Source: Bacteroides sp.
Lineage (GTDB): Bacteria > Bacteroidota > Bacteroidia > Bacteroidales > Muribaculaceae
Direction of reading: 5' to 3'
Assembly (NCBI GenBank): GCA_014802175.1
Contig: JAAVCU010000003.1
Coordinates: 1-38,446, forward strand
Length of the DNA: 38,446 bases
A program made the translations under genes and the position numbers. Positions 1,571 through 4,781 of this stretch are shown here, piece by piece (within the stretch, counting starts at the first letter, position 1; each line of letters starts with the position of its first letter). Under the pieces are notes generated by a model, which was not told where the DNA came from, searched no databases, and was given only the letters and a program-made list of their open reading frames with translations.

Positions 1571-3532
1571 CTACAGTACTTTGTGGATAGTGTCGGGAGA
1601 ATAATGCTTGAAAATCTGCTCGAAGTTATCGAGGACGTTATCGTTAGCGGCAGAAGCATCGCGCATTACGAAGTATTGAGGCTTCATCTTGGCGATTTCG
1701 GTAACGGTGGACTCGTTCACATCGGTGTCGAACGTAGCGACAAGATAAGTGCCGTCAACGAAGAACACCTTTTTGCCATTGACTTCTTTTTCTTCAATCT
1801 TTGCCGAAAGTTCAATACCAAGTTCCGGCATTACTTGGAAAAGTAAATCAAGCGGAGTTCGGTCGGACTTCACATTATCAACCGATTTGAATAGGTCACT
1901 TTCGTTAAAATCTTCGGGAGTGTAGAACACATCCTCCATATTCGACGAGTCAAGTTTGAGCACACGGAAACCGACGTCTGGTAGGGACGCGATTCTTCGC
2001 GTCCGCGCCGAATTATCGGAATCATCAAACAAATCCGACTGGTTGGTATTCTCCTTGTCTTCGCGGACGCGATTAATCGCGTCCCTACAGATCTGCTCCC
2101 CGGCACGGCGGATGCGCTCTTCTCCGATTTGGCAAATGTTCTCATAACCAGCCTTACGCGCTTCGCTCTTCTCATCTGTCACTTCGGGAAGCTGCACCAT
2201 AATGAATTTGCGTTTTCCTCCGTCCTCAGCATTGAGTTTCATGACGGCGTGTGCGGTTGTTGCACTCCCGCTGAAGAAGTCAAGAATCGTAGAAGATTGA
2301 GTGGATGCTATTTCAAGCATTTTAGCAACAAGCTCGTATGGTTTAGGAGTATCAAAAACCTGTATACCATCAAACAATTCCTTTATAACAGAGGCAGCTT
2401 GACGAGTCGTACCATATTTTTGTCCTTCCCAAAGATTTTCCGGAGTGCGTCCTTTTTGATCTGATAAATATATTTTTCTGATTATTCCTGTATTATCCTT
2501 CTTGAATATTATTTCACCAGACGCAATTTTTTCTGATACAGACTCTTCTGACCATCGCCATCCATTTGCAGGAGGAGGAATTATATTTCCATTAGGGGCA
2601 ACTATATTGAAACATAATGTTTTTCGATAATTTGGACTTCGTACATCACCACTTCTCCATAATCCTTTAGGATCGTTATCGGGATTTGAATAGTTAACAT
2701 TGTCCTCTTCGGTTCTTTGAAAATAAAATTCGTGAAGATTATTTTTATATTTCGAGAAGCACAATGTATGATTATATTGACGAGAAAAATGACGCTCGTC
2801 ATTTTTACTCTGCTGTGTATGCTTCCAAATTATATCTGAAATAAAGTTGTTCTCACCGAATATCTCCGAACATATTTTTTTTAAATTTTCGACTTCGTTA
2901 TCATCAATAGAAATGAAGATCACTCCATCATCAGAAAGTAAGTCGCGAGCGACTTTCAGTCGAGGATATATCATGTTGAGCCAGTCGGTATGAAAGCGAC
3001 CATTGCTCTCCGTGTTACGCTGCATGGGGTCAGCGGTAAGGTTACCTTCTTCATCGCGGACGCGATTAATCGCGTCCCTACGCCAGTCTGCATAATCCTG
3101 AGCGAAATCGTCGTTATAGACGAAGTCATTGCCTGTATTATAAGGAGGGTCAATATAGATCATCTTGATTTTACCAAGATAGTTCTCGCGGAGAACCTTA
3201 AGCACATCAAGATTGTCTCCCTCGATATAAAGATTTTCTGTATTCCAAAAATCCTTTGAGGCATCCACGTCAGGACGCAGTGTCATATCCGTAGGAGTAT
3301 TGGCAAGACGCGAAGCGGCACGCTTATCTGGCCACGTGAACTGATAACGCTCTTCAGAAGAATCAATAATTTCATCAGATAACTCTTCCTTAAGTTTATC
3401 AAAGTCGATTTTTAATCGGGGGGGGGTATTATATTTCCCTTTTACTTCAGTAACGCAATAGGGGAACAACGCGGCTATCTTTGCCACGTTTCCATCTACA
3501 GCACTGCGAGATGACATTCTGAGTTTATCCAT
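1571..3532 (-). CDS. mod: Type III restriction-modification system DNA methyltransferase (Mod)
   Basis: IDPPYNTGNDFVYNDDF (motif IV) precedes DFFSGSATTAHAVMKLN (motif I), beta-class order; GRFHTDWLNMIYPRLKVARDLL and GFRVLKLDSSN are typical of type III Mod. Confidence 0.93.
   Translation of the reverse strand: MDKLRMSSRSAVDGNVAKIAALFPYCVTEVKGKYNTPPRLKIDFDKLKEELSDEIIDSSEERYQFTWPDKRAASRLANTPTDMTLRPDVDASKDFWNTENLYIEGDNLDVLKVLRENYLGKIKMIYIDPPYNTGNDFVYNDDFAQDYADWRRDAINRVRDEEGNLTADPMQRNTESNGRFHTDWLNMIYPRLKVARDLLSDDGVIFISIDDNEVENLKKICSEIFGENNFISDIIWKHTQQSKNDERHFSRQYNHTLCFSKYKNNLHEFYFQRTEEDNVNYSNPDNDPKGLWRSGDVRSPNYRKTLCFNIVAPNGNIIPPPANGWRWSEESVSEKIASGEIIFKKDNTGIIRKIYLSDQKGRTPENLWEGQKYGTTRQAASVIKELFDGIQVFDTPKPYELVAKMLEIASTQSSTILDFFSGSATTAHAVMKLNAEDGGKRKFIMVQLPEVTDEKSEARKAGYENICQIGEERIRRAGEQICRDAINRVREDKENTNQSDLFDDSDNSARTRRIASLPDVGFRVLKLDSSNMEDVFYTPEDFNESDLFKSVDNVKSDRTPLDLLFQVMPELGIELSAKIEEKEVNGKKVFFVDGTYLVATFDTDVNESTVTEIAKMKPQYFVMRDASAANDNVLDNFEQIFKHYSPDTIHKVL
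1981..2004. repeat. REP-like palindrome copy 1 (inside mod)
   Basis: gtagggacgcgattcttcgcgtcc; 8-bp stem ggacgcga/tcgcgtcc with loop ttct; encodes TRRIASLP in Mod. Confidence 0.85.
2062..2088. repeat. REP-like palindrome copy 2 (inside mod), inverted relative to copy 1
   Basis: cgcggacgcgattaatcgcgtccctac; 20-nt perfect palindrome at 2065-2084; encodes RDAINRVR in Mod. Confidence 0.85.
3055..3081. repeat. REP-like palindrome copy 3 (inside mod)
   Basis: cgcggacgcgattaatcgcgtccctac; perfect palindrome at 3058-3077; identical to copy 2 over 27 nt; encodes RRDAINRVR in Mod. Confidence 0.85.
3418..3426. repeat. Homopolymer G9 (C9 on the coding strand) in the 5' part of mod
   Basis: aatcgggggggggtatt; coding strand aat acc ccc ccc cga (N T P P R). 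Confidence 0.95.
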
Positions 3533-3660
3533 ATTTAAAATTTAATTTGAAAAACAATCCTTAGTCCAATTTTCAACATTCGTATCAACATAATTCATAA
3601 TGTTGTCGAATGCCATCTGGTTACGAATTATATGTTCGTGATAACGCGATTGCCAGCACG

Positions 3661-3684
3661 GTAGGGACGCGATTCTTCGCGTCC
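3661..3684. repeat. REP-like palindrome copy 4 (inside RAYT)
   Basis: gtagggacgcgattcttcgcgtcc, identical to copy 1; encodes TRRIASLP in RAYT. Confidence 0.85.
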
Positions 3685-3802
3685 ACAGTGTCCTTGTGAC
3701 ACCGGCCTTGAATGATCCAATGATCGTTGCCAACCTGTTGTTGTGATGTTTATCGATGCATTCATCCCCATGTTCCGGCGACTTCAGACATCCGGTATTT
3801 AC

Positions 3803-3844
3803 CGACTGGTCCGTCGCCGCAGAATGCGACTGGTCGGTCGCGGC
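3803..3844. repeat. Short tandem duplication, 24-nt period, inside RAYT
   Basis: cgactggtccgtcgccgc-agaatg-cgactggtcggtcgcggc; two 18-nt units differing at 2 positions; encodes AATDQS-HS-AATDQS in the restored frame. Confidence 0.75.
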
Positions 3845-3867
3845 GGACGCGATAATCGCGTCCCTAC
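3845..3867. repeat. REP-like palindrome copy 5 (inside RAYT, one nt shorter at the centre)
   Basis: ggacgcga-taa-tcgcgtccctac; loop taa where copies 2 and 3 have ttaa. Confidence 0.85.
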
Positions 3868-3979
3868 AGAGATGACCATATGTATATGATTGGGCATCAC
3901 CACATGATTTAATAACTCGACATCCACATAATGTGAGGGAATGCTCTGTATGTTTTCTTCTACAATTTTGCCTGATTCT

Positions 3980-4002
3980 GACGCGATGAATCGCGTCCCA
4001 AC
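3980..4002. repeat. REP-like palindrome copy 6 (inside RAYT)
   Basis: gacgcgatgaatcgcgtcccaac; 8-bp stem gacgcgat/atcgcgtc; encodes VGTRFIAS in RAYT. Confidence 0.8.
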
Positions 4003-4099
4003 GATTCTTCCGAATAAATGTCGCTTCTCATGCGAACATATCGTCACGAAGTAGATACCACCGCTGTAGTCATGCCATTTGGCTCGGAATTGATGTCTG

Positions 4100-4396
4100 T
4101 CAGCCATTCAGTCCTCCTTTCAATCGTTTGAGTTCGATAAATAGTTCTCGCTTGCGGCGTGGCTGTTTGGTAGCGTTCATAAGACGTTTCAATGCAGCAA
4201 TCTGACGTTCAATTTTGGCGCGTTCTTCGTCAACCTTGATTTGTTCAGAAAGAGTTTTGTCCTCTTCGACTGAGAATTGTCCGATTGAGGATACATTGTT
4301 TTCCCAAACAGCATAAAGATTAAGACCTGACAGTCTTAAAGAGCTGCGCCTTTGGCTGCGTTTTTTAACCTCGGTTGATTGTGGCAGTCCTAACAT
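4100..4396 (-). CDS. Shortened DUF4391-like protein of the type III RM operon
   Basis: Starts MLGLPQSTEVKKR and ends with a Lys/Glu-rich coiled tail (KIERQIAALKRLMNATKQPRRKRELFIELKRLKGGL), as I recall for DUF4391 proteins near type III RM genes; only 98 aa. Confidence 0.5.
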   Translation of the reverse strand: MLGLPQSTEVKKRSQRRSSLRLSGLNLYAVWENNVSSIGQFSVEEDKTLSEQIKVDEERAKIERQIAALKRLMNATKQPRRKRELFIELKRLKGGLNG

Positions 4397-4412
4397 TGGT
4401 AGATTTCAGATT

Positions 4413-4781
4413 TCAGTGATTAGATTTCAGTTTATTGCTACTGGTTTTTGCAGTGGCAGTTAGAAGTTTAATCAATTCAGTACAGTCTTGTTCGATAGAA
4501 TCATATTCCGTTTTTGAGAGATAATCGGTTTCACATAGAAGATCTAACCAATATTTTGTCTCAGTACATTCTTTCAATGAAATGTAGATTTTTGAAGTAA
4601 AGTCCTTCATACTTATCCCACAAATAGCCTCAGCAAGATTCGCACCAATGGAAGTGCCACTCCGTAAAAGTTGCTTTGATAGCACAAATTCTCGCTTTTC
4701 TTCACTTAAATATTTGTACAGCCTTACAATCCTAATTGCAAACGCTTTAGCTTTTATGAATGTAATCGAATTCTGTGACAT
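4413..4781 (-). CDS. Four-helix bundle protein (23S rRNA intervening-sequence protein family)
   Basis: KAKAFAIRIVRLYKYLSEEKREFVLSKQLLRSGTSIGANLAEA...KIYISLKECTETKYWLDLL is characteristic of the family. Confidence 0.9.
   Translation of the reverse strand: MSQNSITFIKAKAFAIRIVRLYKYLSEEKREFVLSKQLLRSGTSIGANLAEAICGISMKDFTSKIYISLKECTETKYWLDLLCETDYLSKTEYDSIEQDCTELIKLLTATAKTSSNKLKSNH

Follow-up and report, generated by a model that had tools for sequence, protein, structure and literature searches.

GTAG-type REP palindromes inside the methylase and RAYT genes of a type III restriction-modification operon

The palindromes described here have close relatives in print. In the part of Quentin et al. (2018; PMC6006769) devoted to it, subclass 2.4 of the TnpAREP transposases is given as Bertels' group 4, is abundant in Cyanobacteria and Bacteroidetes, and carries REPs in frame in its own genes, generally between the HuH and Y motifs. 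GTAG REPs, often arranged in pairs or dimers, are reported inside ORFs of several species in the relevant sections of Di Nocera et al. (2013; PMC3733652), where a pair codes for 20-30 residues. The same sections describe the palindromic elements of Rickettsia conorii as ending in CGTC, and CGTC repeats as having no associated transposase. Because these accounts already describe REPs read in frame, both in RAYT genes and in ORFs of other kinds, the original prediction for our locus, a RAYT/REP system spreading as in-frame peptide insertions, is less novel than was claimed. The six palindromes of this locus are very probably GTAG-type REPs of a RAYT (TnpAREP) lineage resembling Quentin's subclass 2.4.

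The palindromes were found in the window, that is, the whole stretch of 38,446 nucleotides analysed, in an operon read on the minus strand. On that strand the genes run from a 23S rRNA IVP-type gene (4413-4781) through a shortened DUF4391 gene (4100-4396; PF14335), the gene for the REP-associated tyrosine transposase or RAYT (3548-4107), mod (1571-3532) and a Fic-family gene (363-1430) to the start of res (3-350). The mod gene is open and encodes a type III DNA methyltransferase of 653 residues that matches PF01555, the MTase_III profile (2e-215) and the type III Mod chains 6k0w and 4zcf. The res piece encodes the N-terminal part of the restriction subunit (REase_III, 4e-21). Both the Mod and Res profiles of a type III restriction-modification (RM) system are therefore present, Res being cut by the contig end and separated from Mod by the Fic gene. 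IVP-type genes recur near mod in three other genomes (G013, G106, G065). The DUF4391 gene, which overlaps the start of RAYT, has about 100 internal codons fewer than its relatives in the alignment and is still open; a REP was considered as the cause of this deletion and dropped, there being no REP trace at the junction. A run of nine C (sense strand, 3418-3426) lies near codon 36 of mod. The mod gene of G013 is frameshifted at about the same place (locus L045, about 4412-4437), beside a run of seven G. Homopolymer tracts can render a type III methylase phase-variable.

All six hairpins share the core GGACGCGA-N3/4-TCGCGTCC and fall within 1981-4002, three in the mod ORF and three in the RAYT region, as had been claimed. 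Five stand on a GTAG foot and the sixth on GTTG. The N4 form, GGACGCGA-N4-TCGCGTCC, occurs at five places in the window when up to three mismatches are allowed, against 0.08 expected from shuffled sequence, and the N3 form matches the sixth copy exactly (3845-3863). A looser hairpin scan recovered the same six, and neither it nor the pattern scans revealed a further copy in the rest of the window, again in line with the original prediction. In mod, the plus-strand copy at 1981-2004 (GTAG foot at 1981, loop TTCT; the right half in mod sense), which with its flanks encodes ARTRRIASLP, and the minus-strand copy at 2065-2088 (loop TTAA) make up a REPIN-like pair with feet outward. This pair covers 108 bp, or 36 codons, in a linker at about residues 482-518. 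The third mod copy (3058-3081, minus strand, loop TTAA) occupies what we call site A, about residues 152-160, and codes for RDAINRVR. In RAYT, the plus-strand copy at 3661-3684 (loop TTCT; site 2) directly precedes the WQ motif and codes for TRRIASLP; the minus-strand copy at 3845-3867 (three-base loop; site 1) directly follows the HuH motif; and a degenerate minus-strand copy at 3979-4002, with the GTTG foot and one stem mismatch, lies at the N-terminal site 0 and codes for VGTRFIAS.

Two sets, 1981-2088 in mod and 3661-3867 in RAYT, consist of two REPs in inverted orientation, each with its GTAG facing outward and a spacer between them, the arrangement that defines REPINs and that had been noted as head to head. 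The hairpins are read through in frame, and the peptides originally quoted for them are correct. The accompanying statement that the third frame is closed holds in one orientation only: in sense, the TAG of GTAG shuts one frame, whereas in antisense none need be closed, and relatives make use of each of the three (GRDVSRPY, RTRLIASLP, ADAPGCVPT). Closure thus depends on the orientation of the REP and on its loop.

The RAYT gene does lie in the same operon, between DUF4391 and mod, but it is frameshifted and not intact. The frame in use from 4107 gives way at the REP (3867-3845) to a different one that continues to 3548, and this REP has a loop one base short, three bases against four in the other copies. 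In a fragmented draft the frame change could alternatively be an assembly error. The two pieces are 71-73% identical to the intact RAYT of G034. Like the RAYTs of relatives, they match the NCBI model for REP-associated tyrosine transposases, NF047646, below its cut-off. A profile of the relatives' RAYTs finds 4er8, a TnpAREP with its REP hairpin; by fold, the same entry is the top match for a model of one of these proteins. The HuH motif (NHIH) and the W motif (WQ) fit subclass 2.4 (NH[IFV]H and WQ). The Y motif is YVDTNV in the window and YIDxNV, YIxNNV or in some cases YI..NP in relatives, against a subclass 2.4 consensus of YIxNNP. At the stem foot, where subclass 2.4 has three G-C pairs or a double foot, the window has two G-C pairs followed by A-T (GGA/TCC) and G080 has GGG/CCC; double-foot copies occur in G120, L151, L165, L169 and L198. 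The RAYT expected to accompany GTAG REPs is thus present but broken in the window, and it is intact, with the same stem, in G001, G034, G128, G119 and G022. Elsewhere in the host draft, PF01797 has matches on contigs C2, C21 and C26, the translation from C2 being another Y1-type protein.

RAYT matches were found in 24 of 111 genomes of the genus. Our motif comparison covers the 18 intact ORFs among them, with the broken RAYT of the window set apart; five genomes (G023, G036, G097, G105, G134) were left out for a fragment, an interruption or an uncertain start. A GTAG hairpin lies between HuH and WQ in 14 of the 18, two of them with 7-bp stems and one with a stem mismatch; two ORFs have it at the C-terminus only and two have none. 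Four RAYTs met in the REP pattern scan (L161, L169, L174, L223) are excluded from this count. In-frame REPs between HuH and Y, the mark of subclass 2.4, are therefore the rule among these intact ORFs, as judged over the HuH-WQ interval, and the window gene has such copies but is frameshifted. The copy directly after HuH is in sense in five cases out of five and the copy directly before WQ in antisense in seven out of seven, with an outward-footed pair in several genes. In a model of the G001 protein (mean pLDDT 76), site 1 forms the end of a strand and gives way to a run of residues with values under 50, and site 2 is found where a helix ends ahead of WQ. In our alignment (A1), roughly half the RAYTs share a segment, GCLKPPxHG...HHNS, between sites 1 and 2, which is absent from the shorter, REP-poor RAYTs; it may be a domesticated spacer.

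The copies inside RAYT genes vary in frame and in stem. At the pre-WQ site, G022 and G080 share one frame, and G001, G034, G128, G119 and G096 another. The stems are species-specific yet complementary: besides GGACGCGA there are GGACGCGC in G062, G121 and G016, GGTCGCGA in G132, GGACGCAC in G003 and GGGCGCAA in G080. Among the matches listed, all 20 genomic copies in G096 are the same 24-mer as the copy in its RAYT gene, and the stem is common to the RAYT gene and the dispersed copies in G003, G022, G034 (with one exception), G128, G001 and G119. For the most part, then, an internal copy agrees with the REPs found elsewhere in its genome, which points to behaviour as a DNA signal and not as a peptide. 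CGC-type REPs are present in 18 of the 24 genus genomes with a RAYT and in 26 of the 87 without (Fisher p 1e-4, ignoring relatedness), and the proposed tie between REPs and RAYT is supported. Counting against it are the RAYT-less genomes that also hold REPs and three discordant genomes: G080 has no dispersed copies and G062 has dispersed copies with other stems (among the matches listed), and the RAYT found in G112 is REP-free although that genome has 113 REP matches.

Relatives of mod were found in 33 of the 111 genus genomes and, across the order, in 56 of 393. Of the 60 mod ORFs in the fetched loci, three have a GTAG hairpin of eight or more paired bases, those of the window (three copies), G013 and G034 (one each, at site A), and 57 have none. 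Where the window has a 40-residue linker holding the REP pair, REP-free orthologues read GEKVKEEAGDKAKDLDVGFR or similar, over 14 residues. Such REP-free forms bear out the description of the palindromes as inserted, and judging from these alignments the hairpins in mod and RAYT are insertions or replacements, not family sequence. The opposite reading would make them old mod/RAYT family sequence, inherited by descent without any insertion; it could appeal to site A, common to three species with the same near flanks, and to RAYT sites 1 and 2, occupied in many species. Set against the hairpin-free majority of mod ORFs, the short linker of the REP-free orthologues and the differences in frame and stem between species at the same RAYT site, it is exceedingly improbable. 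Since the near flanks match in all three carriers, site A is most simply explained by a single event, followed by inheritance or by transfer together with the operon. Neither of the outcomes named in advance as fatal to the original prediction, namely family sequence shared at the same positions or random copies unrelated to RAYT, is what emerged.

Insertion alone does not account for the lengths involved. The net gain is 2 codons at site A, 26 codons where the 36-codon pair sits and about 0 for a REP in the DUF4391 gene of G013; because such figures are unlike those of clean insertions, native sequence must have been replaced or later lost. Recombination or gene conversion might accordingly have pasted REPs over native codons without RAYT transposition, which would explain why the length changes fall far below element size. 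The linker of G013 mod (L045) is relevant here: between RIRRAG and DVGFR it carries another inverted repeat (AATGCAAAATGCACAATGCATAATT ... GAATTGTGCATTAAGAATTGCGCATT; AATGCAAAATGCACAATG type) round a related spacer, at the same two points as the REPs of the window. The spacer of the window pair, which resembles this linker, may be native mod sequence. However, insertion followed by loss of flanking codons would look identical, and the N-terminal RAYT copy of G128, with its 7 extra codons, is close to a plain insertion. We therefore regard pasting by recombination as rather unlikely and prefer insertion by a RAYT. In a model of the window's Mod protein (mean pLDDT 77), residues 132-180, where site A lies, are of low confidence; the linker pair lengthens the helix at 466-495 and runs through a weakly predicted stretch.

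Codon positions give an indication of the level at which the copies are conserved. In the site-A block of the three mod carriers, whose column range includes 8 flank bases beside the REP, none of the 8 third codon positions differ, against 50, 52 and 61 of 127 around it (39-48%); the loop does show differences at first and second positions. For ten pairs of the pre-WQ RAYT copy, 0-1 of 8 third positions differ, against 45-60% in the core; the blocks are short and the pairs non-independent. Such freezing of third positions is the opposite of the pattern produced by protein-level conservation. Together with the variation in frame at one site and the stems that differ yet remain complementary, the frozen synonymous sites indicate that the REPs behave as DNA elements and not as peptides. 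One could envision that the mod hairpins are kept because they act at the level of the operon's DNA or its mRNA, for example by tuning methylase expression or serving as RAYT binding sites. Synonymous positions frozen amid 39-60% divergence would agree with this, as would the existence of two species in which RAYT is a tightly packed operon gene with matching junctions. But recent spread, or copying between REPs, could equally freeze synonymous sites; hairpins are rare among mod ORFs, RAYT is rarely beside mod, and the RAYT of the window is broken. Retention for such a role is thus very unlikely.

The two species in question are the host (G000) and G080, in which RAYT sits between DUF4391 and mod with its start overlapping the end of DUF4391. 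Their junctions match: ATTGAAAGGAGG shortly before the RAYT start, GGATTGTTTTTCAAA at the RAYT end and ATGGATAAACT at the start of mod. No other case of RAYT beside mod was seen within the fetched flanks of the 59 mod loci scanned. Upstream of the G128 RAYT is a DUF4391 remnant with a REP-like palindrome, as if this RAYT derived from a slot of the DUF4391-mod type. Three separable events (site A, the linker pair and the DUF4391 copy) in one operon type, against one elsewhere, would fit insertion near a resident RAYT, the sample being small. It is tempting to go further and to regard RAYT and REPs as a lasting module of the type III RM operon. There would have been one entry of RAYT into the DUF4391-mod slot, the internal REPs would have changed stem together in two lineages (GGACGCGA, GGGCGCAA), and the hairpins in mod and DUF4391 would be RAYT targets, or RNA signals tying the transposase to methylase expression or reshuffling. 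Were this distinctly unlikely scheme true, the methylase linker would be a landing pad for several palindrome families.

How far the elements have spread differs between the host and its relatives. The host draft genome (2.15 Mb in 42 contigs, 77% complete) has the exact N4 core five times in this operon and once elsewhere, without a foot (C8:61945). The footed half-site GTAGGGACGCGA, with at most one mismatch, occurs at nine places, six of them in this operon; a reversed-pattern control also gives nine matches, so that the three places outside are at chance level. The claim that the palindromes are confined to this operon is therefore right for the draft at its present completeness, all footed copies lying in two genes. 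The host does not show the distribution typical of GTAG REPs, mostly extragenic and with many copies per genome. In the genus, most of the copies examined lie outside any recognised gene, and the highest number of exact copies, 94, is that of G112. We define a recognised gene by RAYT, mod, DUF4391 or UpxY-like homology, or as a long ORF read by eye. By this definition, 15 of 47 exact copies from nine genomes are genic (RAYT 8, mod 5, DUF4391 1 and one UpxY-like protein, in its C-terminal tail), a sixteenth is in a RAYT gene fragment, and the others are in no recognised gene. To say that the system spreads as in-frame peptide insertions hence overreaches.

On a wider scale, exact matches to the footed core, whatever its 4-base loop, were found in at least 118 genome stretches. 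Those among the matches listed are mainly from Bacteroidales, with others from Chloroflexi, Peregrinibacteria, WOR-1, Flavobacteriales and Halopseudomonas. The same matches comprise 157 REP places in 118 stretches, 40 of them within ORFs of at least 150 residues; many of these 36 ORFs look spurious, and 14 were scanned with Pfam. That REPs enter only mod and RAYT was rejected, since other genomes carry in-frame copies in recognisable genes: TilS, where Pfam domains flank the copy (L245), a Por_Secre_tail domain (L175), an alpha-2-macroglobulin (L237) and, as a REP-derived array, a protein with PG_1098 ferredoxin-like and THUMP-like domains (L176). In L176 (2704-4110) and L237 (3419-7999), REP-derived peptides (IYRVRNSDT..., DAMNRNS...) form in-frame tandem arrays in proteins with recognised domains.

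A likely mechanism can be outlined. The RAYT, an HuH/Y1 single-strand nuclease, would likely recognise the GTAG-footed hairpin on single-stranded DNA, probably including the copies within its own gene, and would join REP ends to new sites. REPs of this kind would thus be mobile, those of the window having presumably been transposed by the RAYT beside them. A copy landing in a gene would persist only if it left the frame open and fell in a tolerant loop or linker of the protein. Given that the RAYT of the window is broken, the copies in the host are probably stranded now.

The locus can be placed among the known systems as follows. With subclass 2.4, as that part of Quentin et al. presents it (PMC6006769), it shares GTAG-footed REPs (possibly of the long type), in-frame copies inside the RAYT gene and a Bacteroidetes host; it departs from that account in having a broken RAYT, a Y motif ending in NV and not NP, a position inside a type III RM operon and REPs in mod as well. 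It is like the intragenic REPs in the sections of Di Nocera et al. cited above (PMC3733652) in that single REPs and inverted pairs are read through in ORFs of known proteins. The species and genes given there are others, however, many of them concerned with DNA repair, Bacteroidetes are named there for CGTC repeats, and in the window it is the RAYT's own operon that is targeted. The 108-bp pair in mod, two inverted REPs and a spacer, resembles REPINs and BIMEs as outlined by Bertels and Rainey (2011; PMC3116915), but the host genome is without the dispersed population that goes with them in that outline. The original prediction also drew a parallel with Rickettsia palindromic elements. It stands as regards palindromes tolerated in frame in ORFs and fails as regards foot and transposase: membership in that family was rejected, as the window has a GTAG foot and a RAYT where the account in PMC3733652 gives CGTC and no dedicated transposase.

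Our literature search turned up neither a RAYT placed within a type III RM operon nor REPs located in mod, which does not prove that no such report exists. What appears new is the RAYT tightly packed into such an operon (DUF4391-RAYT-mod) in two species, the REPs in mod and DUF4391, and the evidence for REPs acting as DNA elements and not peptides. The locus is a natural experiment, compact in scale, on the persistence of REPs within genes. The varied frames at one site, the frozen synonymous sites and the complementary, species-specific stems argue for selection or copying on the DNA, not the peptide, and a RAYT packed into a type III RM operon makes it practical to test for REP insertion near a resident RAYT. 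Taken as a whole, the locus clearly adds a new case to a class of selfish repeats known from related bacteria.
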